Below, piece by piece: positions 51,992 to 64,000 of a stretch of DNA of 64,000 nucleotides. Each line of letters begins with the position of its first letter. The stretch's first letter is position 1. This DNA is from Solibacillus sp. FSL R7-0682 (lineage in GTDB: Bacteria; Bacillota; Bacilli; Bacillales_A; Planococcaceae), in the NCBI RefSeq assembly GCF_038005985.1, contig NZ_JBBOUI010000001.1:2376001-2440000 (forward strand), read 5' to 3'. The notes under the pieces were generated by a model. It had not been told where the DNA came from and did not search any database. It worked only from the letters and a program-made list of their open reading frames with translations. Position numbers and translations under genes: made by a program.

Positions 51992-52037
51992 AACCATCTG
52001 GGACGTAGTTGAATCAACGTTCCAGATGGTTTTTTTA
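51992..52037. terminator. terminator at the left end of the carotenoid island
   Basis: AACCATCTGG (51992-52001) and CCAGATGGTT (52022-52031) with an inner ACGT/ACGT, then TTTTTTT on the plus strand. It fits the original end of ahpF; the minus-strand crtO transcript also reaches it. Confidence 0.8.
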
Positions 52038-52098
52038 TTCCTAGCATCTGTTTATCCCCGGAACCCCAGCTCTGTAAAATGGGGTACACCTTCATGAA

Positions 52099-52605
52099 TC
52101 ATCGGCTTTTTCGTTCCTTGCGCCTTCTCCCTTTACCATAACGGGACGAACCTACAATGGATTCGATTCTTCCTCTATTATAGCGCTGTGTGATGATGAA
52201 CGGTATGTTTGCGAGGAGTGCATAGGCAAGGATGATCCAGCCTGCCCAATCTGGATTCCACAAGAAAAATAGAGGGGCCGGCAACATTAACAGCCAATGG
52301 GTGAGCTCGGCTCTTTTCGTTTCAGCTGCAAAAATCAGTAAATCCTCCTGCTTCGTTCCATGTAGACGGCGCTTATCATAACTTTTCTTCACAATGGAAG
52401 AACCATCTATTAAGTACCTTTTCCATTTCTTCACGAACAATAAACGGTTCCATACCTCCCCATTCTTCTCCCAGGGGGCAATCCGAAGAAATGCTACATC
52501 TTTGAGAAAATAGCGCAAAGGAATGTTGAAACACAGCGCTGAAATTGCAAAATGCAGAACGAGCCATGCCACTGTATTAACAACAAGAAGCCCGATAAGC
52601 ATCAT
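52099..52605 (-). CDS. crtO: glycosyl-4,4'-diaponeurosporenoate acyltransferase
   Basis: 168 residues, near the length of Staphylococcus CrtO (165). Hydrophobic N-terminus, then EVWNRLLFVKKWKRYLIDGS and ETKRAELTHWLLMLP, and FIITQRYNRGRI, all matching the CrtO pattern (the WNKWF.VRKWK, TKRAELIHW and QRYNRPR stretches). Transfers a fatty acyl group to the glucosyl carotenoid, the last step of staphyloxanthin-type synthesis. Follows crtQ by 12 bases. A basic C-terminal tail. Confidence 0.85.
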   Translation of the reverse strand: MMLIGLLVVNTVAWLVLHFAISALCFNIPLRYFLKDVAFLRIAPWEKNGEVWNRLLFVKKWKRYLIDGSSIVKKSYDKRRLHGTKQEDLLIFAAETKRAELTHWLLMLPAPLFFLWNPDWAGWIILAYALLANIPFIITQRYNRGRIESIVGSSRYGKGRRRKERKSR

Positions 52606-52617
52606 ATCCCTCCCCCA

Positions 52618-53736
52618 TTAAACGTTGATTTTCCTGCCTTTCCACATGACCGAATGCAGGACATGCGTTCGGAAGGAAGAATACAAAAATACCGCTGTAA
52701 AGAACAGCACAAAGAAAGGATAGAGGAAGAGGACGATAATTCGGAAATTCCCTGCCCTTCTCGCCAGAAAATACACATGGGCGCCATAGAATAGGTAGAT
52801 GGCGACACTCCACGAGAACGTCACATTGGATTCCGTTAAAAAAGCGAGTATGGGTGCCACGGTTGCCATGAGGGCGCCAAAAATCCATAGTTGAATAAGG
52901 AACATGACAAATCTATGGGTTGATTGGGAGGCTGTCGCCAGATTTTTTGTCCATCCTTCAATTAATTGCTTCCTTCCCTCTTCATACATCCGCATGTTAA
53001 TGATGCCTCTGCCCACATAGTTCGTAACTGCCAGGTCCCTTTCTAAAAAAAGGTCGCTCAGTGCGAAGTCATCCATAATCGATTCTTCCGCAGCCTCATG
53101 CCCTCCTGTTGAAATGTAGCTCTCCTTATCGCAAAGGATGCAAGGTCCAAATGACCCTGCAGTCCTATACCTTTCTTTCCAAACGGTAAATACATTCATT
53201 CCTGTCAGGACAATGATGTTGAATAGGACGGATAAATTTTCGTATGGCTTTACAATGCGGTGATACGGTTGAATGGACAAGATACCCTTGCATTCTTGTT
53301 TGCTGAAGCCGGCAAGCATCTTCACGAGGCTTTTCTCATCTTCAAGCTGTACATCCGCATCTAAGAAAAGAAGCCATTCCCCTTCAGCAAATCGTCCCCC
53401 ATAGGCGCAGGCATTCGCTTTACCAGGCTTCATCCGGCCTACCTGTTTACTTTTTACCACCTTCGCCCCGTATGATAAGGCCACTTCAGACGTCTGGTCC
53501 GAGGAGCCATCATCGACTACGATTACTTCAAAACCCGTCCAGCTTTGCATTTGCAGCGATTGTAACAATGGTGGCAAACGAAGCGCTTCATTTCTGGCCG
53601 GTATAATAATCGACAGGAGCGGAAATGATTGATTCTCCTCTTGCACCGGCAGCTTTATGGTGGACCAGAACATGAGCAGGCCGCCTAATAAGCCGCTTAA
53701 GGACAGGATTTGTACGATACTATATAAAATTTCCAT
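52618..53736 (-). CDS. crtQ: 4,4'-diaponeurosporenoate glycosyltransferase
   Basis: 372 residues from the ATG at 53736 (AGAAGGA upstream; earlier in-frame codons lie within the aldehyde dehydrogenase remnant). N-terminal membrane helix, family 2 glycosyltransferase: LLSIIIPARNEALRLPPLL, VIVVDDGSSDQT, KPGKANACAYGG and WLLFLDADV (D-x-D), then FLERDLAVTNYVGRG and two or three C-terminal helices. It fits Staphylococcus CrtQ (375). Adds glucose to the carotenoid carboxylate. In operon with crtP, the aldehyde dehydrogenase remnant and crtO. Confidence 0.87.
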   Translation of the reverse strand: MEILYSIVQILSLSGLLGGLLMFWSTIKLPVQEENQSFPLLSIIIPARNEALRLPPLLQSLQMQSWTGFEVIVVDDGSSDQTSEVALSYGAKVVKSKQVGRMKPGKANACAYGGRFAEGEWLLFLDADVQLEDEKSLVKMLAGFSKQECKGILSIQPYHRIVKPYENLSVLFNIIVLTGMNVFTVWKERYRTAGSFGPCILCDKESYISTGGHEAAEESIMDDFALSDLFLERDLAVTNYVGRGIINMRMYEEGRKQLIEGWTKNLATASQSTHRFVMFLIQLWIFGALMATVAPILAFLTESNVTFSWSVAIYLFYGAHVYFLARRAGNFRIIVLFLYPFFVLFFTAVFLYSSFRTHVLHSVMWKGRKINV

Positions 53737-53753
53737 GAGCACCATTCCTTCTG

Positions 53754-54146
53754 TTAAAATAGCCACTTCCGCAGCCTCTTCACCCATACAAACACCCGTT
53801 TTGAATATGGCGGGTATTTTTCACGCAGGTATTTATTGGTGAATGCCCGATAGTCCGTTTGCAGATGGCTGCAGGAGGCGAACCCTGAGTCCCCATGATA
53901 GGCACCGAAGCCGCTTCAACCAATCCCGCCGAACGAAACCCGACTGCTCCCTGCATGGTGGATCACCTTATTAACAATGACCACTCCCCTCACGCATTGT
54001 CGAAGCAACTCGTTTTGCTCCCCTTTTTCCGTGAATAGATAGGTTGTCAACGAATCTTTCTGGATCAGCCCTGAAGCGAGCAGCCATTCCAAGATCGGGT
54101 AAGGGACAATTGTCCTCTCTGTCAGGGGGATGATTTTATTATCCAT
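53754..54146 (-). pseudogene. aldehyde dehydrogenase remnant (carotenoid aldH), deleted and with a nonsense codon
   Basis: Only the C-terminal part of an aldehyde dehydrogenase survives: TYLFTEKGEQNELLRQCVRG, VVIVNKVIHHAGSSRVSFGGIG, then TGA where the family has a glycine codon, then in the same frame SGFGAYHGDSGF and on to KYPPYSK and TAA at 53754. The catalytic cysteine region is gone and the N-terminus (MDNKIIPLTERTIV) is joined to it abruptly. Its ATG overlaps the crtP stop. It lies where carotenoid clusters of related bacteria carry the enzyme that oxidises 4,4'-diaponeurosporen-4-al to the acid. Confidence 0.8.
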
Positions 54147-55635
54147 CCATCCGGTCTCTCTCCATCAGCTTCTTTGCCACCTGTTGACCACTAAGCGTGA
54201 CCATCGGCATGCCGCCACCCGGATTGACTGTACCCCCGACGAAATATAGGTTTTCATAGCGTTCACTTTGTTTTGCATGCTTAAATCCTTTATTCATCTT
54301 TTTATTAGAAACCGTCCCATAAATGGCCCCGCGGTCTGAAGAATAGTTCCGTTCGATATCATGCGGTGTCCACATGTCCCGTGTGACGATGCTTTCTCTA
54401 AGCCCATAGAGCCCCATGTTCTCCAGTTTGATCAATACCTTTTCAGCAAAGGCGGCATAGTCCTGCCGAGTCAGCGGTTTATCCTGGAGGTAGGGGATGT
54501 GCGGAAGGATTTTAAGGTTCTCGTGGCCAGGCAGCGCCTGTTCCGAATCCGTCTTATTCACATTCACGACATAAATGACCGGATCATCAGGAAGTTCGTG
54601 CTTATGGAAAATCGCATTCATCTGCCGTTTCATATTGCCCGAAAAGAAGAAGTTATGATGTGCAAGTTGCGGATAACTGTTTTTCACCCCCAGGTGCAGC
54701 ACAAGACCGGAGCTTGCCGGTTCGAATTTTTTGTTCAAGTTGTCTACATACGTCTTTTTCTCCTCGAGCAATTGCTTGTATGCCGGAATGACTTCCATGT
54801 TGGAAACAAAATAATCCGCCGTCAATTTCATGCCATCATCTGCATAGGCCGCTGCAATCCTTTTATTCGTTTTTTCGAACTTCACTATTTTTTTCCCCAG
54901 ATGAAACGTGACGCCTGCCTCTTCCGCCAATTTTACCAACGCATCCGCTAAATGATGCATTCCGCCGGGCACATACCAGATCCCCTGTGCATGCTGCATA
55001 TAGATCATCATATTAAGGACTGCAGGCGCATCATATGCAGAGGACCCAACATATTTGACAATATAGCTCAGCATATCTCTGAATTGCGGATTGCTGATTC
55101 TTTCATCAATAGCCTCAAACATCGTCGAGGATAAATCGAATTTACGCAGCGACTGGAATATGCCGTGATGCTTGAGCACTTCCTTTAGATTGTCTAGCCC
55201 TTGATTAAAATAGCCTTGCTCCGTTATGTCGTACAGTTTTTCGGAATATTGCAATAATTCCTTGTACTGTTTTATGTCTTTTGTCGTGAGGGAAGTGTTC
55301 AACTCCTCCATTTCCTGCAGATTCTCGTATAAATCAAGTATATTTCCATCCGGAAAAAAGGAGCGCCACTGGTGGTTCAGTCGCTGAATTTGGACATACT
55401 CACTCATTCGCTTCCCGCTTTGCTGAAATAACGCCTCAAAAATATGGGGCATCGTCAGGATGGATGGTCCTAGATCAAAGCCGAAGCCATCCTGTTCCAA
55501 ACGGTTCAACTTCCCCCCAAGATGATTGTTCTGTTCATATAAGTGCACATCGTACCCCTTTTGCTGGAGCGATATCGCCGCTGACAAGCCCCCAAGCCCG
55601 CCCCCTACTACGATCACTTTTTTCTTATTCGACAT
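54139..55635 (-). CDS. crtP: 4,4'-diaponeurosporene oxygenase (diapophytoene desaturase-like)
   Basis: 498 residues; Staphylococcus CrtP has 497. FAD-binding GGGLGGLSAAISLQQKGYDVHLYEQNN at the start, then HLGGKLNRLEQDGFGFDLGPSILTMPHIFEALF, HQWRSFFPDGNI, ISNPQFRDMLSYIVKYVGSSAYDAPAVL, and GGTVNPGGGMPMVTLSG at the C-terminus. These match CrtP specifically, more than CrtN, from memory of the family. It oxidises the terminal methyl to an aldehyde. A GGGGAGG site precedes the ATG. GC-rich, unlike both flanks. Confidence 0.87.
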   Translation of the reverse strand: MSNKKKVIVVGGGLGGLSAAISLQQKGYDVHLYEQNNHLGGKLNRLEQDGFGFDLGPSILTMPHIFEALFQQSGKRMSEYVQIQRLNHQWRSFFPDGNILDLYENLQEMEELNTSLTTKDIKQYKELLQYSEKLYDITEQGYFNQGLDNLKEVLKHHGIFQSLRKFDLSSTMFEAIDERISNPQFRDMLSYIVKYVGSSAYDAPAVLNMMIYMQHAQGIWYVPGGMHHLADALVKLAEEAGVTFHLGKKIVKFEKTNKRIAAAYADDGMKLTADYFVSNMEVIPAYKQLLEEKKTYVDNLNKKFEPASSGLVLHLGVKNSYPQLAHHNFFFSGNMKRQMNAIFHKHELPDDPVIYVVNVNKTDSEQALPGHENLKILPHIPYLQDKPLTRQDYAAFAEKVLIKLENMGLYGLRESIVTRDMWTPHDIERNYSSDRGAIYGTVSNKKMNKGFKHAKQSERYENLYFVGGTVNPGGGMPMVTLSGQQVAKKLMERDRMDG

Positions 55636-55867
55636 ATTGTCCTCCCCCTGCCTGCTTCTTTGTCACGCTCTCAGCCGCTCCTCTTACTAATTCATGTTCT
55701 GTCACTTGCTTTTGTACAATGTTTACTTTTATTCGTCACCAAGTAAGAAACGTGCATTTTCCATCCTCTATACGCCTTTATCATCAGCTTCTTGTAAATT
55801 CCTCCCGTGGAATCCAACTTTCACCCAAGCCCCAAAATGTACATCATTATCCTATAATTTTACAAAC

Positions 55868-55896
55868 ATTATACACTTCTTTGTTTTTTTGTACAA
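55868..55896 (-). promoter_or_regulatory. promoter of the crtP operon
   Basis: Minus strand TTGTAC (55891-55896), 17 bases, TATAAT (55868-55873). It is about 230 bases before the crtP ATG, giving a long leader. Confidence 0.55.
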
Positions 55897-56009
55897 TGTA
55901 TTGTTTAGGGGAAATTTAGGGAGCAGGGATTTTTATCTGTCCAGAGATTATATTATCAAGTGTTATCTCTTAGTTCACAGTTCTTTACGCCAGGTCACAA
56001 AGTGAAAGT

Positions 56010-56147: not shown

Positions 56148-56269
56148 CTCTCACTCTTTGACAATCATTGAATAATGTATATGGAGACGGCGGGGGAAAG
56201 AATGATAATTTGGTAAAACCCTTATATACCAACGTTTCCACGCCATTTTTAATACTCATTTTTGGAGAC

Positions 56270-56324: not shown

Positions 56325-57182
56325 TTACTTATTTGTGTATTTAAATAAATTTTCAAGTTTACTTCTCATTCTATTATATAGTACATCTGGAATAATATTA
56401 TTAGGTATCCGACCATGAATATAAATAGAATCTTGAATAGCTCGTAGTTCTTGCTTAGTGACCTTAGCCTTGTTATTTAATGAATCATCTATACATTGTG
56501 TAATTCTTTTTAACTCATTTACTTGTTGAAGAAAATCAAACCAGGCTTTAAATAAGTAAATGAATAATGAAATCGTTGGGAAAAATAACATTATTAAAAA
56601 ATCATATAACTTGAATCCATGATAACACCCTATTACAACCAAAGAAATAAATATTAAAATACCTGAAAACAAAAGAAATTTACTAAACTTTTCTTTTTGT
56701 TTTATGGACCATGCTGTATTCATACGCTGTGCTTTTAATGTATATTCGACTTCGTTCTCAGTTTCTATTCCAGTGTACCAATCTTTTAATTTCCATTCTT
56801 CCGTTCTTTCTTTATCTGCTAACAAAACAATATCTTCTTTACTAACTTTTTCACCAACTAAATGTGAATTCCACTTTAAATTGAATATACTCGTATCAAA
56901 ACACTCTTGAATATTTGCCCCCACTTTTGAAAAGCTTTTTTCATAATATTCTATAATAAATGTTACAACTAAAATTAAGGAACTAATTACTATAACAACA
57001 TTAGAAAATTTATTATCAAAAATAAAATATAATAAAACTGCTATAATCGGCCAAACTATACTTAAAAACATTCTAAACATATAAAAATTTTTAGCTTGTT
57101 TATATGCTTGTCTTTGCCCACGTAAAAAAATAATGCTTTCTGGAGTATTTTGTCTATCTTGAATGGGAAACAGTTTATTCAT
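56325..57182 (-). CDS. S-4TM pore-forming effector of CBASS
   Basis: 285 residues from the ATG at 57182, which overlaps the CD-NTase stop (ATGAATAA) and has GGTGA upstream; a start at 57227 is possible but less likely. Four membrane segments in two pairs (~37-55, 60-80, 170-190 and 195-217), with a cytoplasmic middle that contains GEKVSKEDIVLLADKERTEEWKLKDWYTG and a helical C-terminal tail. This is the S-4TM/SLATT-like architecture of CBASS membrane effectors. On infection it would open a pore in response to the second messenger from its partner. Not related to a named transporter. Confidence 0.8.
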   Translation of the reverse strand: MNKLFPIQDRQNTPESIIFLRGQRQAYKQAKNFYMFRMFLSIVWPIIAVLLYFIFDNKFSNVVIVISSLILVVTFIIEYYEKSFSKVGANIQECFDTSIFNLKWNSHLVGEKVSKEDIVLLADKERTEEWKLKDWYTGIETENEVEYTLKAQRMNTAWSIKQKEKFSKFLLFSGILIFISLVVIGCYHGFKLYDFLIMLFFPTISLFIYLFKAWFDFLQQVNELKRITQCIDDSLNNKAKVTKQELRAIQDSIYIHGRIPNNIIPDVLYNRMRSKLENLFKYTNK

Positions 57183-58281
57183 AATCATCACCGAAAATAA
57201 TTCGCCACTGTCCATCAGCACTTTCATAATCTTGACTCGCTTCGAAATTCAATGCTTTAACTACGGCAGATTCACTTGCTATGGCCTTATTTTGTATTAA
57301 ACATTTCTTCTTATACTCTAAGTCATTTAAATCCCCTTGTAATCCTTTAGGATCTAAAACTGATTCAAAAATAGCATCTTTCAAGTAAGCAAAAAATGAG
57401 TTTAATTGATTTTTTCTATTTGGCCAAATATAGTTAGTTTCAAAGTAATTCAATACTATATTTTCTATCAAATATGATGAAATATTGATTCTTTGTACTT
57501 TATTCCAATACTTAATAATCCTTATAAATTCAATAACATTAAAATCCGTTGATTTGTTAATTCCAGTAACCCTTGCCTGATCAATCCTAGGGTCCGTTTT
57601 CTTCCAATGACCCTTTCCATTCGGAATCAGATAATAAGACCTACCATCACTTTCTTCTGTTGTTTTAAATGCTGGTATAATATCAAAGGTCCAGTCATAA
57701 CTAGTTAAACTTAAAATTACTGCTTCTTGGCTTGAACGAATATCTGCCTTTTTATATTGAGAAACTTTTGATATATTATCCTTAATCTTATTCGCTATTT
57801 TTCTTGAGTTTAAATATCCATTTTCGTCTCTTAACTTATATAGATTTTCTGCTTCTTTCGGAACAGTTAATTTTACCTCATCACCAAAATTTTCATATGT
57901 TGTCCCATCTGCTGCAAAAACTAACATAAAATCTATGTCATCTAATGGTCGAATTTTTGTTTTCCTCGAAAATGATCCGTAGTTATATATATGTTTGTTT
58001 GGATATAATCTTGGAAAATCTTCTACTTTACTAGGTAACTCTTCTAATTGCTGATACAAGAAATCCCTACTTGAACGTGCTTTCTTAGTAACATCTACAT
58101 CTAAATTTATATTATTTTTTATGAATTCATTCATATTTACCCTGGTATAAGTAGTCATCCTATTCCGCCTCTTTCTATATTTTTTCAAATACTCCCGCAA
58201 TTCAAAGATTCCTTCAATTCCCTTAATAATTAGGTTTCCTCTGCTATCTATCAATAATATTTTTAAGTTTTCTGTAGACAT
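57175..58281 (-). CDS. CD-NTase (cGAS/DncV-like nucleotidyltransferase), SMODS type
   Basis: 368 residues; a start at an internal ATG (residue 42) is possible. Nucleotidyltransferase core GSFSRKTKIRPLDDIDFMLVF (residues 102-122) with catalytic D115 and D117, and the third acid D200 in YDWTFDIIPAF. A SMODS helical C-terminal half with YWNKVQRINISSYLIENIVLNYFE. In CBASS this enzyme makes a cyclic di- or trinucleotide on phage attack. The only effector gene is the overlapping S-4TM gene; no Cap2/Cap3 ubiquitin-like or HORMA/TRIP13 genes occur, so this is a short (type I) system. Confidence 0.88.
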   Translation of the reverse strand: MSTENLKILLIDSRGNLIIKGIEGIFELREYLKKYRKRRNRMTTYTRVNMNEFIKNNINLDVDVTKKARSSRDFLYQQLEELPSKVEDFPRLYPNKHIYNYGSFSRKTKIRPLDDIDFMLVFAADGTTYENFGDEVKLTVPKEAENLYKLRDENGYLNSRKIANKIKDNISKVSQYKKADIRSSQEAVILSLTSYDWTFDIIPAFKTTEESDGRSYYLIPNGKGHWKKTDPRIDQARVTGINKSTDFNVIEFIRIIKYWNKVQRINISSYLIENIVLNYFETNYIWPNRKNQLNSFFAYLKDAIFESVLDPKGLQGDLNDLEYKKKCLIQNKAIASESAVVKALNFEASQDYESADGQWRIIFGDDYE

Positions 58282-58319
58282 TATATAAAACCCTTTATTT
58301 GGAATAATAGTGTGTTTTA

Positions 58320-58348
58320 AGTATAATATAAGTGTAATATAAAAACAA
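58320..58348 (-). promoter_or_regulatory. promoter of the CBASS operon
   Basis: Minus strand TTGTTT (58343-58348), 17 bases, TATACT (58320-58325), about 39 bases before the CD-NTase ATG at 58281. Confidence 0.5.
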
Positions 58349-58443
58349 ATACAAAATAGAACAAAGGTTCTCTTCTATATGAATTAAAGATTCCCAGAAA
58401 ATATATACAAAATTTTATTTAGACAATTTTAAGGAGACCAATG

Positions 58444-59490
58444 ATGAATATTACCGAATTTCAAACAAATATAAAATTAATTTTAGCTGAAATTTTCCAT
58501 CCAGATTTTTCGAGTGCGTTTAATGGACCAATTACATTTGATGATTTTTGCACACAAATTCTATTTGAATTATATAAAGATAGTTACATCCTTCGTTACC
58601 AACATAAAACTCCTTTACAAACTCACGTTCAAAATGAAATTTCATCACTACTTCCTAACACTGCAGCAACAATAAAGAATTCAACCTATCAACAAAAAAA
58701 ACGACTGATGAAACTTGTAAAATATTACAAAGATGATACTAAGAAATATTTTAAAAATAACGGAATTGATTTAAATCAAATTAACGGATTAAATATTCCT
58801 GAGTTAAAGACTATGGAGGAAAAAAGAAACGGACATGCTTTAACTGCTTTAAATTATGATGAACTAAACAATATCAGAACTTTCAAATTATTTGAATATA
58901 TCTTAAAAAAAACAATTACTAAAAGTAAAAATGTGTCTAATAAAGATTTAATCGATGCGTTCACACATTTAGATGATTACTACCGAGACTTGAATCTAGC
59001 ATTTAAAAAAGAGCCTTCTATGGACATATTAATTAAAATTTATGATATTGAAAACTCATACTTTACAAACCTAGCCTATCAAATCGCTGACTACTTAGAA
59101 AAAAATAATGTAAAAGACTGTGATTTAACAATTCTTTCACCGTTGCTAGTAATCACTGATTCATCAATAAATTTTGCTGCTTCCAATAGATTTATGTATC
59201 ATCGACATACATACATTTCAGAACTAATACAAAGAAAGAATTATGCACATAAAAACCTTGCTCAAATTATTTATATGAAAGCGGTTCTAACAACTAAATT
59301 TAAACGCCAAATAAATGCTCTATTTCTACAACTAGATGAAGATGATGTAAAAAATCATTTGTTTAAAAACTATGATTTAACAACAATTTACTCGTATAAA
59401 AAAGAATGCAGTCAAAAGAAGATTTCTATTATACGTAGTTTATATAAAATATATATTCGAGATGTAGAATATCCAAAAATTCGTACATAA
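58444..59490 (+). CDS. unidentified helical protein in the defence island
   Basis: 348 residues from the second ATG at 58444, which is seven bases after AAGGAG (the first, 58441, is only four away). No signal peptide, membrane helix or nucleotide-binding motif. Mostly helical, lysine- and asparagine-rich. Candidate conserved-looking stretches are FNGPITFDDFCTQILFELYKDSYILRYQH near the N-terminus and FMYHRHTYISELIQRKNYAHKNLAQIIYM in the C-terminal third, both with histidines. Divergent from CBASS (160 bases) and followed by a second unidentified gene and type I restriction genes. It could be an undescribed defence protein. Confidence 0.6.
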   Translation: MNITEFQTNIKLILAEIFHPDFSSAFNGPITFDDFCTQILFELYKDSYILRYQHKTPLQTHVQNEISSLLPNTAATIKNSTYQQKKRLMKLVKYYKDDTKKYFKNNGIDLNQINGLNIPELKTMEEKRNGHALTALNYDELNNIRTFKLFEYILKKTITKSKNVSNKDLIDAFTHLDDYYRDLNLAFKKEPSMDILIKIYDIENSYFTNLAYQIADYLEKNNVKDCDLTILSPLLVITDSSINFAASNRFMYHRHTYISELIQRKNYAHKNLAQIIYMKAVLTTKFKRQINALFLQLDEDDVKNHLFKNYDLTTIYSYKKECSQKKISIIRSLYKIYIRDVEYPKIRT

Positions 59491-59570
59491 CAAAGATTAA
59501 GTCCTAATGGTAATGTTAAATTATTCATCTTACCCCGATGATCAACATAAACATTTAGGAGGCTATCGTT

Positions 59571-59948
59571 ATGCAAAAGTTAAAAGGAAGAATTGTAGAA
59601 ATCGAAAAAAATATCCATCGAATTAACTATCTAACTACCGGAATTGGCAAAAAAGATCAACATTATTATGATAACCAATTTGGCGGCTCTAACGGAACTT
59701 ATGTAACTGCCTCAGAATATTACGGAACTACAATTGATATGAAGGTTTATATTTACGAATTAGAAAAATGTGTAAGTTTCGATATTCGCGACTTAATCCT
59801 ACAACTTAACCAGAAATCTAAGATTTCATCAAAGTTGCTTAACTATGTTATAGAAAACAACCAGGGTAACAAAATTAACCTTCTTTACTTCAATAATTCT
59901 GTTACTTTTTTACCCGACGGGTTGAATTTAGTCCGCAGTAAGAAATAA
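59571..59948 (+). CDS. unidentified small protein in the defence island
   Basis: 125 residues with AGGAGG eight bases before the ATG. Soluble, likely mixed alpha/beta: the start KLKGRIVEIEKNIHRINYL suggests a coiled helix, followed by GGSNGTYVTASEYYGTTIDMKVYIYELEK and a helix-rich end (RDLILQLNQKSKISSKLLNYVIE). No known motif. It lies 80 bases after the larger unidentified gene on the same strand and before a shared terminator, so the two are probably an operon. Confidence 0.6.
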   Translation: MQKLKGRIVEIEKNIHRINYLTTGIGKKDQHYYDNQFGGSNGTYVTASEYYGTTIDMKVYIYELEKCVSFDIRDLILQLNQKSKISSKLLNYVIENNQGNKINLLYFNNSVTFLPDGLNLVRSKK

Positions 59949-59952
59949 AAAC

Positions 59953-59992
59953 AAAAGCTTCCGTTGCAATTAAAACTGCAATGGAAGCTTTT
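59953..59992. terminator. bidirectional terminator between the unidentified pair and hsdR
   Basis: AAAAGCTTCC-G-TTGCA and TGCAA-T-GGAAGCTTTT, with T-runs on both sides. Confidence 0.8.
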
Positions 59993-60026: not shown

Positions 60027-63000
60027 TTAATTATATTTTTGTCGAACTTCAGCAATCCATTCCGGAAGTTTTTTAGATAGCGATATATTATGTTTTAACA
60101 GAATACCCGCTGTTTTATTTGTCGCTTTTCCAAAATCTACACTACGAGTAATATCTTCTCTGTATGGAATCACATCAGGTTGTGAAATAGAATACGAACG
60201 CACGGATTTTAATAATAATTCGTTATTTATTCCCCATTCACTAGCGAATATATCTACCTCTTTTTGTAGCTTATCATCTTTCCAAATTTCAAAAGCCTCG
60301 TCAAAATTTAAATTCCCGCTTAAATTTCCGGAAACGAGTTCCGTATCAACGAATTCTTTTAATAATTTAGCTTGTTCAAATTCACCCATATTACTTAATT
60401 CTTGAATTTGTTCATAAATAATACGGCGTGTTTCATTATCGACTGTTTGCACACCATTAGATGTGATAACTTTGGAACCGATTAAACTAAGGATATGATT
60501 CGCATCAATTACTTGTGTTCCAGCTAACTTCGTTTTTCCAACGAGTGTATTAATTGTTGTTGGAGTTTGTGTCGTTCCTTCTTTCCAAGTTAAGTTCCTA
60601 TACGCACCAATATATTGTAACCAAGTGTGTTCATCAATACCGAAACTTACGTCATCCCACTTAAATTCATAATATTGTTCCACTAAATTTAATTGTTCAG
60701 CCGTATCTTTAAAAGCAAGAATAAACACTTCTTTTTGTTCTTCATCTCGTTCAAGTGTCTGCCATTCAGTAGGATTTGGTAATGTAGGAATCATCTCTGC
60801 AACTTTTAAAGCCAATTTATTTACAGCAGTTTCATAGGTATCAACAATCGCCTTGCTACTCTTACCGCCACTTCCATACAGCTTCAATGCGACTGTTACT
60901 AATTCCTCAGTAATTCGAGGATATTGGAAATTGATAATTGTCCCGAATTCCTTATTTGAACCAAATACACGATTAGTTCGTGAATAAGCTTGAATTAAAT
61001 TTTGAAGTTTAAGCGATCTATCAACATATAATGTATTTAAACGCTTAGAATCATACCCTGTCAGTAATTGGTCAGCTACAATCACAAGGTCTATATTTTT
61101 AGGATTTCGCCCACTACCACCTCTCGTAGCACGTTCTACGACATCTTCAAAGTAAGCATCCTCACCATGTTTTTTATCCTCCGCAATGAATTGGATACCT
61201 GTAAATGTAGCGTAATCTGTAAACATGCCCTTCACAATTTCCGGATCAAGCGGTGTAGTATCATTTTCGTTCCCAAAACTAAATGTCATTGCCACATTTA
61301 AGTTTTCTTTACGTTCGGCTAATTGTTTTTTGAATTCATTGTAATAAGCAATGACACGAGGTTTATAAGCAACTGTCAAAATAGCATTGAATTCTCTACC
61401 TTGTGATTGTGATTCCCAATTATTCAAAATTTCTTCTACTACACGCGGGATATGTGTTTCATCTTGATATATTAGTAATTCACGTTTTACAGCTTCCTTT
61501 TCGAGTTCAAGTTCGGACATTTCTTGTACTTCGCGTTCAATTTCTCTGTCAGTTAAATGAGGTTTTTCGGCCTTTATATCTTCTGCTATTTGCTCTCTTA
61601 AATCTTCATAACTTTTGAATTCCCCTGTGTTTATATAATCAACATGGAAACCTAATACGTTTTTATCAGCAATAGCTTCATCGATAGTGTATTTATGTAA
61701 TTCCGGTCCGAATAACTTTTCCGTTGTATTGATGACTTCACTTTTTTCGTTTATTTTCCCTTTTATATTATTTTCATCAAATAAAGGTGTACCCGTAAAG
61801 CCGAAGAAAAGTCCATTTTTCTTGAAATAACGCTTAATAGTTCCCATCATCTGTCCCATTGTTGTACGATGGGCTTCATCAATGATAAAAATAATTTTCT
61901 TTTCGGATAAACTAGCATCACTCGATTCTTCTAACTCTTTAACTAAGGTATTTAATTTGAACGTAGTTGTTACCACAATACCTTTTTTAGCAGATTTGAG
62001 TATCTTTTTTAGTTGATATGTATGTTTTGTATCATCAACAGAAACAGGCTCATACGCAGCGTAGGCTTTAAAGTTTTCGCTAGTACGATTGTCGAGTTCA
62101 CGTCTATCTACAAGGAAGATTACTTTATCAAAACCAGCTCTTGTGGATAAAAATAATGCGGTTTTGAAACTCGTAATCGTTTTACCCGAACCCGTAGTAT
62201 GCCAAACATAACCACCATGCGGTAATTTCTCTTTATTATCCCAACCAAATGCAGCACCTTCTACCGCCTGTAAAGCGTGTACTTGATAAGGGCGCATTAA
62301 CATATGTCGTCTATTTTCTTCATCACGAGCTTCATCAATTACTAAATAATCTCCAATCATCTGATGTGCCATCGGAATCATTAAGAATTGTCCGATCACT
62401 TTTTCCCAATCATTGACGATATGATTTTCTTTATCGGACCAATGAAAAATAAAACTTTGATTAAAATCGTTAATAGTTTTAGGTGTCGCAAAATATCGAG
62501 TAGCAATTTCAGATGTCATTACCATCATCTGTGAAAAAGCCATAAAGTTGTTACTGTATTCGCCATCACGATAATAACGCATGAATTGTCCGAACGCTTC
62601 ATCTAGCGTTTTATCTGTGCGTTTTTGCTCGATGTTGATTAAAGGTAAACCATTAATCAACAGGACTATATCAAATCGGTTGTTATTCGGTGTTTGCACT
62701 TCTCGTGCAATTCGATAACTAGAATCTCCACCTCGTACCGCAGCCTTTTTAAAAATCGTCAATGTGATTTGTTTTCTCGTAACATCTGGATGATCATCAC
62801 GATAAATACCATCAATCTTTCCTGTGGATTCTTCGATAGCTAAAATCTTCGCAGCTTCATAGCTATTATTAATTTGATTAACTTTCGCCACGACTTGTTT
62901 AAATTCGTTATCCGTCAATTCCACGCCTTCCAACATATCAGCATTTATACGGTTTAATTCACTTCGCCAGTGATTTATTAAATCATTAACAGTAATTTTT

Positions 63001-63110
63001 TGTTTATTACCGTCCAAAAAATCCGGTGCTTCCCATTTATACTTTTCTAATTCTTTTACAAATTTCTCTTGAAAAATTTTTTCTGAAGCGCTTTTCGGTG
63101 CATTGCTCAT
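60027..63110 (-). CDS. hsdR: type I restriction endonuclease subunit R
   Basis: 1027 residues, the usual HsdR size. N-terminal PD-(D/E)xK nuclease with FDIVLLINGLPLINIEQKRTD (Asp and ExK). SF2 helicase motor: Walker A HTTGSGKTITSFKTALF, DEAHRTT box, and motif VI AYSRTNRVFGSNKEFG. C-terminal helical region for HsdM/HsdS binding. GGGGGG-rich site before the ATG. It translocates and cuts unmodified DNA together with HsdM and HsdS. hsdM should lie beyond the right edge. Confidence 0.93.
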   Translation of the reverse strand: MSNAPKSASEKIFQEKFVKELEKYKWEAPDFLDGNKQKITVNDLINHWRSELNRINADMLEGVELTDNEFKQVVAKVNQINNSYEAAKILAIEESTGKIDGIYRDDHPDVTRKQITLTIFKKAAVRGGDSSYRIAREVQTPNNNRFDIVLLINGLPLINIEQKRTDKTLDEAFGQFMRYYRDGEYSNNFMAFSQMMVMTSEIATRYFATPKTINDFNQSFIFHWSDKENHIVNDWEKVIGQFLMIPMAHQMIGDYLVIDEARDEENRRHMLMRPYQVHALQAVEGAAFGWDNKEKLPHGGYVWHTTGSGKTITSFKTALFLSTRAGFDKVIFLVDRRELDNRTSENFKAYAAYEPVSVDDTKHTYQLKKILKSAKKGIVVTTTFKLNTLVKELEESSDASLSEKKIIFIIDEAHRTTMGQMMGTIKRYFKKNGLFFGFTGTPLFDENNIKGKINEKSEVINTTEKLFGPELHKYTIDEAIADKNVLGFHVDYINTGEFKSYEDLREQIAEDIKAEKPHLTDREIEREVQEMSELELEKEAVKRELLIYQDETHIPRVVEEILNNWESQSQGREFNAILTVAYKPRVIAYYNEFKKQLAERKENLNVAMTFSFGNENDTTPLDPEIVKGMFTDYATFTGIQFIAEDKKHGEDAYFEDVVERATRGGSGRNPKNIDLVIVADQLLTGYDSKRLNTLYVDRSLKLQNLIQAYSRTNRVFGSNKEFGTIINFQYPRITEELVTVALKLYGSGGKSSKAIVDTYETAVNKLALKVAEMIPTLPNPTEWQTLERDEEQKEVFILAFKDTAEQLNLVEQYYEFKWDDVSFGIDEHTWLQYIGAYRNLTWKEGTTQTPTTINTLVGKTKLAGTQVIDANHILSLIGSKVITSNGVQTVDNETRRIIYEQIQELSNMGEFEQAKLLKEFVDTELVSGNLSGNLNFDEAFEIWKDDKLQKEVDIFASEWGINNELLLKSVRSYSISQPDVIPYREDITRSVDFGKATNKTAGILLKHNISLSKKLPEWIAEVRQKYN

Positions 63111-63125
63111 GACATACCCCCCATT

Positions 63126-64000
63126 CTAAATAAACATTTCATTTAAATAAGCTTTTTTCAAATTTTGCAGTTTTTCTAACTTGCGTTGATGCAGAACAAT
63201 GAGATTACTTAAATTATCTAAGAAAGAAGCTATCTTATTCTGTTCTTCTATACTTGGATAGGAAACAGGAATATTTTCTAATTTTGTGTAATATAAATTT
63301 GATACATTCCCTCCCTCGACACGTTTTGCAAATTCATATTTGAAAAGGGCGTTGAACATGTATGCAGTAAATAATGGATTTTGTTGTGTGTTGTAAACTG
63401 AAATCATTTCGCCTATTGCAACTCCAGGTATGCTAAGCCAACTACAATTTGCGAAATCTAATGGATCTTCGCCTACACGGGGAACAAGAACTTCGTTTCC
63501 GGTACTAAATTTCAAATTTTCTCTTGGAATATTTGTAAAAGAATAAATTGTATCAATTTTTTCTTTGTGTTTCGTATAAAGTTCTCCATATCTTACACAT
63601 GGCGTTGTTGCATCCGATGTTACTGACCATTTTGGAGCGCTTTTTCCATAATAGAAATAGCCAAATTCCCCAATAGTACCTTGTTTCCATGCACCAGTAA
63701 ATCCTGCAAATCTCCTTTTTGGCTCAAGGTCACCCTCATTGGGAAATAGTTCAGACAGATAAGCAAATTTTAAAGCTTGAGCTTTTTCTAACTTACGCTT
63801 TTGAAAAATGATATTGTTCTCTAATTCTTCAAAAAATCTACCAATTTTATTCTGCTCATCATAATTCGGAACCTTGATTTGTAATCCTTTGACAATCGAG
63901 CCTGATAAGTTCCCTTGACCACCTTGGAGATATTTATCTAAAATTTTATGTTTTTGACTGCGTAGCAATTGCATAATAAATTTTGAATCATATCCTTCTA
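63126..64000 (-). CDS. hsdS: type I restriction specificity subunit S, partial
   Basis: Open to base 64000, so the 5' end is outside the window. Visible are the end of the first target-recognition domain (GGQGNLSGSIVKGLQIKVP), a central conserved helix (NKIGRFFEELENNIIFQKRKLEKAQALKFAYLSELF), the second target-recognition domain, and the C-terminal conserved helix (NKIASFLDNLSNLIVLHQRKLEKLQNLKKAYLNEMF). The two helices are near repeats that form the HsdS coiled coil. Sets the sequence that is methylated and restricted. 15 bases before hsdR. Confidence 0.9.
   Translation of the reverse strand, partial: EGYDSKFIMQLLRSQKHKILDKYLQGGQGNLSGSIVKGLQIKVPNYDEQNKIGRFFEELENNIIFQKRKLEKAQALKFAYLSELFPNEGDLEPKRRFAGFTGAWKQGTIGEFGYFYYGKSAPKWSVTSDATTPCVRYGELYTKHKEKIDTIYSFTNIPRENLKFSTGNEVLVPRVGEDPLDFANCSWLSIPGVAIGEMISVYNTQQNPLFTAYMFNALFKYEFAKRVEGGNVSNLYYTKLENIPVSYPSIEEQNKIASFLDNLSNLIVLHQRKLEKLQNLKKAYLNEMFI

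Follow-up and report, generated by a model that had tools for sequence, protein, structure and literature searches.

An apparent two-gene operon between CBASS and type I restriction genes in Solibacillus sp. FSL R7-0682, a tentative candidate for a conflict module

In the genome of Solibacillus sp. FSL R7-0682, two genes of no known family, here called p1 and p2, lie between a CBASS locus and a type I restriction system. A first-pass annotation of the analysed stretch of 64,000 nucleotides (the window) had singled them out, by this location, as its best candidates for a new antiphage module. The question is whether p1 and p2 form such a module, belong to one of their neighbours or are carried between defence genes by chance.

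Coding capacity and layout of p1 and p2

Both open reading frames described in the annotation, of 348 and 125 residues, are present: p1 occupies positions 58444..59490 and the small p2 positions 59571..59948, both on the + strand. Each has a good ribosome-binding site, as had also been claimed, recognised in the sequence as AAGGAG (58431..58436, +) for p1 and AGGAGG (59557..59562, +; 8 nt 5′ of the ATG) for p2. An alternative start of p1 is found 3 bases upstream (ATGATG at 58441) and would give a protein of 349 aa; the spacing of AAGGAG favours 58444 over 58441. The DNA is indeed AT-rich, with a GC content of 26–32% around p1–p2 versus 41–49% at 52000–56000.

The longest open frame in the 1,746 bp of the p1–p2 region comprises 355 codons; among 2,000 random sequences matched in length and dinucleotide composition, the median was 72 and the maximum 189 codons. 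Frames of at least 125 codons were found in 1.15% of these sequences, so the length of p2 alone is only mildly unusual. Under a codon model trained on genes nearby, p1 and p2 scored +0.07 and +0.04 per codon in their own frames, while the five other frames scored −0.42 to −0.84 per codon and contained 10–44 stops each. Opening by chance is ruled out by the frame length of p1, the codon bias and the stops in the other frames, and p1 and p2 are genuine coding genes. It is extremely improbable that they are decayed or spurious frames with no function. Conservation is not measurable, since no homologue was found, and about 1% of random sequences contain a frame as long as p2; against this stand the 348-codon frame, a codon bias like that of the neighbours, the ribosome-binding sites and a terminator-like hairpin.

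The two genes are separated by 80 nt, in which no promoter-like site was found. Their description as tightly linked is therefore apt as regards the short gap, but the frames do not overlap. Genes of toxin–antitoxin operons usually overlap or leave a few bases between them, and the gap here is longer. Upstream, a promoter-like site (TTGGAA-17-TATAAT, 10/12; 58299..58327, +) lies in the intergenic stretch from which the CBASS and p1–p2 operons diverge; it is regarded only as a candidate, since over the whole region such sites are no commoner than in shuffles. Downstream, a bidirectional terminator-like hairpin (59953..59992) with 19-nt arms, 89% complementary, is located between p2 and the convergent hsdR and is common to both. 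Its energy is −23.5 kcal/mol (z −9.2), and it is absent from the list of a strict consensus scan. By this layout, p1–p2 looks like one two-gene operon with its own terminator. A hairpin able to mask the ribosome-binding site of p2 was also considered and proved not unusual (z −1.2).

Protein families, structure and relatives

Nothing convincing was found for p1 or p2 in Pfam, PADLOC, NCBIfam, PHROGs or PDB. At E ≤ 10, no PADLOC profile matched either protein, and Pfam gave 0 families for p1 and sub-threshold matches only for p2. The best PDB matches (E of 0.37 and 0.73) are not meaningful. At the level of the Pfam, PADLOC, NCBIfam and PHROGs libraries, the first-pass statement that neither protein has a recognisable motif holds. 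The p1 protein is basic, and its hydropathy shows no membrane segment. AlphaFold models built from single sequences reached a pLDDT of 37.6 and 37.5 and are unusable as structures; p1 is probably soluble and all-helical, the helices being taken from its low-confidence model (pLDDT 37.6).

One explanation is that p1–p2 belongs to a known effector superfamily but has diverged strongly from it, e.g., with p1 as a HEPN-type RNase and p2 as the small partner; it would then be a disguised abortive-infection or toxin–antitoxin module of a known kind. As given in PMC3710099, the HEPN motif is RX4-6H. The p1 protein contains RFMYHRH and, at residues 264–269, RKNYAH; the latter fits this motif and sits in a region modelled as helical, albeit with low confidence, and p1–p2 shares with HEPN toxin–antitoxin and abortive-infection modules the two-gene organization. 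However, 28% of the p1 shuffles contain a plain RX4H and 61% an RX4-6H, and a pattern narrowed to HEPN-like residues, found in 1.3% of shuffles, was chosen after the match had been seen. Given the frequency of RX4H in shuffles and the post hoc choice of the narrower pattern, RKNYAH is a weak lead and not evidence. Unlike the components of known HEPN modules, p1 matches no HEPN profile at Pfam E ≤ 10, and p2 matches no nucleotidyltransferase profile. The HEPN explanation is distinctly unlikely.

The search for p1 relatives covered 261 genomes from its family, 399 from the class and 190 from another family, and that for p2 relatives the 261 family genomes and 398 from the phylum (at most 850 and 659 genomes, respectively; the samples overlap). 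Tblastn was run on plasmid and phage records, and exact 8-residue pattern scans, which reach close relatives only, were applied to 84,980 genomes and 2.9 million viral contigs. No real relative was found in the sampled genomes, plasmids, phages or pattern-scanned collections. A second copy of either gene, and hence a recurrent linkage to defence genes, was likewise not found in the collections searched; remote relatives outside the sampled sets are possible. Two outcomes named in the annotation as counting against a new module, namely homologues always lying outside defence islands and a match to a known family, were sought and neither was found, nor was a confirming one.

Several weak matches were examined and rejected as chance. 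All family-level matches to p1 (E 0.001–0.01) contained stops, and a p1 match in the genome G338 was antisense to another frame (NERD-like by eye). The plasmid matches to p2 (E about 0.1) lay largely on the strand opposite an IS903/IS5 transposase, the p2 match in G863 was inside a GyrA/ParC-like gene, and two weak p2 matches (G062 and G176) were not reproduced by tblastn.

Flanking defence systems and separability of the pair

Both flanks of p1–p2 were confirmed by profile matches. On the left, the genes for a SMODS-type cyclase (57175..58281, − strand; PF18144, 1.4e-11; PDLC00802, 1.1e-121) and an S_4TM pore-type effector (56325..57227, − strand; PF18159, 2e-67; PADLOC 4TM, 8e-93) constitute a two-gene CBASS. 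On the right, hsdR (60027..63110, − strand), identified by Pfam and PADLOC profiles, is followed by hsdS (63126..64000, − strand), which is cut by the window end; the whole gene (407 aa) is seen in the extended locus L016, with hsdM after it. It should be noted that the cyclase frame, as listed, begins approximately 42 residues before the conserved part, and its likely start is at MTTYTRVNMNEF.

Given such neighbours, p1–p2 might be an accessory of one of them, regulating or assisting either CBASS or restriction, or the two genes might act against defence. The pair adjoins the CBASS with the S_4TM effector and has a similarly low GC content, and p1 is divergent from the cyclase gene, with a putative common promoter region in the 160-bp intergenic stretch, which is AT-rich and contains imperfect repeats. 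Nevertheless, an accessory or anti-defence role is highly unlikely. On the other side, p1–p2 is convergent with hsdR behind the terminator-like hairpin. Profile searches revealed no helix-turn-helix or Cap2/Cap3-like match for p1 or p2, and with PADLOC, Pfam or NCBIfam neither matched a cyclase, effector or ancillary gene known from CBASS. Moreover, both neighbours are found elsewhere, at 65–84% identity, without p1 and p2.

In the same family, the cyclase has relatives in G049 (81% identity), G152 (72%), G144 (71%) and G139 (65%). All four keep the 4TM gene and lack p1 and p2 nearby, neither of which was found within about 7–8 kb of the cyclase in these genomes or in G234. A cyclase relative of 42% identity and three plasmid copies likewise retain the 4TM gene without the pair (none within 5 kb on the three plasmids). 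Near the HsdR relatives (84% and 81% identity; Priestia and Exiguobacterium plasmids), p1 and p2 were absent within 8 kb. Since both flanking systems occur elsewhere without p1 and p2, the pair is part of neither and, judged by these comparisons, is a separable cassette.

In three relatives (G049, G152 and G144; loci L067, L068 and L069), CBASS-4TM again lies next to a type I system, and the arrangement varies from one to another. This is consistent with a defence region whose parts can be exchanged; in defence islands, cargo located between complete systems is typically exchanged.

The surrounding island and the possible role of p1–p2

At about position 56000, the GC content falls from 41–49% to 26–36%. 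Here, a core sequence resembling the tmRNA 3′ end, GACGGCGGG (56186..56194, +), marks the putative left end of an island. It occurs only twice in 99 kb; the second copy is at G000:C1:2458661, 82661 from the window start and 18.7 kb past the window end. Direct repeats of the arm-like type, AAAACCCTTATATA and TTTGACCCAAAAA, are found immediately within both ends. A full tyrosine integrase gene adjoins the right core, which lies within a piece resembling the tmRNA 3′ end (23 bits, below the family cut-off), and a second integrase and a recombinase fragment are found further in. In G144, a 62%-identical integrase directly follows the tmRNA gene, and after it come the CBASS pair (cyclase 71%) and type I HsdM. 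Based on the core repeats, arm-like repeats, integrases, tmRNA-like piece and G144 relative, we interpret the region as a tmRNA-targeting type of integrative island that carries p1–p2 among its cargo. It would extend over approximately 26.5 kb, from window position 56186 to G000:C1:2458670 (about C1:2432186–2458670; loci L016 and L017).

Islands targeting ssrA (tmRNA) with tyrosine integrases are among those catalogued in Islander (PMC4383910). The present region resembles them in its terminal tyrosine integrase, in the tmRNA-3′-end-like core at both ends, so that an integrase and a core repeat at both ends are found as in a tmRNA-site island, and in the arm-like repeats inside. It differs in that the intact host tmRNA gene (C1:716248–716603) is 1.7 Mb away, whereas the relative in G144 does sit behind tmRNA. 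The site is therefore considered to be secondary or rearranged. In an empty-site comparison within the genus, the flanks upstream of crtN were not syntenic, and the right-flank gene had no close counterpart.

Beyond HsdR–HsdS–HsdM, the island contains a gene with N6_Mtase and Methylase_S domains, a LAGLIDADG-type gene and the recombinase fragment. The first of these (L016:15084–16970, 628 aa), located beside hsdM, is a methylase-specificity fusion, and no restriction subunit of its own was seen nearby. Two further island proteins (L017:4046–6043, 665 aa, and L017:8330–9175, 281 aa) are without a Pfam match. In the G144 island (L069, 2820–14691), integrase and CBASS are separated by two unrelated frames of 344 and 247 aa.

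This gene content bears on the possibility that p1–p2 is non-defence cargo, serving regulation, transfer, host adaptation or maintenance of the element, and lies between defence genes by chance. No role is known for the majority of single-copy island ORFans. The island includes genes outside defence (a Replic_Relax protein, PF13814, the LAGLIDADG-type gene and unknowns) as well as the recombinase, and the related island of G144 also carries other, unrelated frames. However, both immediate neighbours of p1–p2 are complete defence systems and not transfer or replication genes. Such a chance placement is a serious possibility, though a doubtful one.

The explanation that we tentatively prefer, without considering it probable, is that p1–p2 is a lineage-private two-gene conflict module, either antiphage or toxin–antitoxin-like, carried as independent cargo of the tmRNA-type island. 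The reality of the genes, their operon layout, their place on the island and their separability are supported by the sequence comparisons. We infer further that p1 and p2 act together, in defence, as effector and partner. In this conflict module, an operon forming a separate cargo in the defence region of the island and independent of CBASS and the restriction system, p1 (soluble, basic and helical) would be the effector, acting on infection to damage or block a process that involves nucleic acids. The small p2, encoded on the same message, would restrain p1 or sense the trigger. The lack of a homologue or profile match, the unusable structure, the non-defence genes on the island and the 80-nt gap count against the conflict module.

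The location argument of the annotation is right as far as it goes, with both flanks confirmed and what looks like a real operon between them. Guilt by association requires that genes turn up together more than once. As neither gene was found a second time, the argument rests on one locus; on this basis, a defence role for p1–p2 is conceivable but falls somewhat short of likely. The stronger claim, in which p1–p2 would be a two-component antiphage system of a new type, unrelated in sequence to any catalogued one, and would spread as a cassette between complete defence systems on tmRNA-type islands, is unlikely. Consisting of ORFans and lying in a defence region, the apparent operon is a reasonable antiphage candidate, though not an exceptional one. 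If the pair is not defensive, it would be one of very many private gene sets on mobile islands. If it is, two protein families that the searched defence catalogue lacks would be gained, from a type of location where new systems have been discovered time and again. The relatives of its neighbours show the pair to be separable, and it can thus be tested alone.
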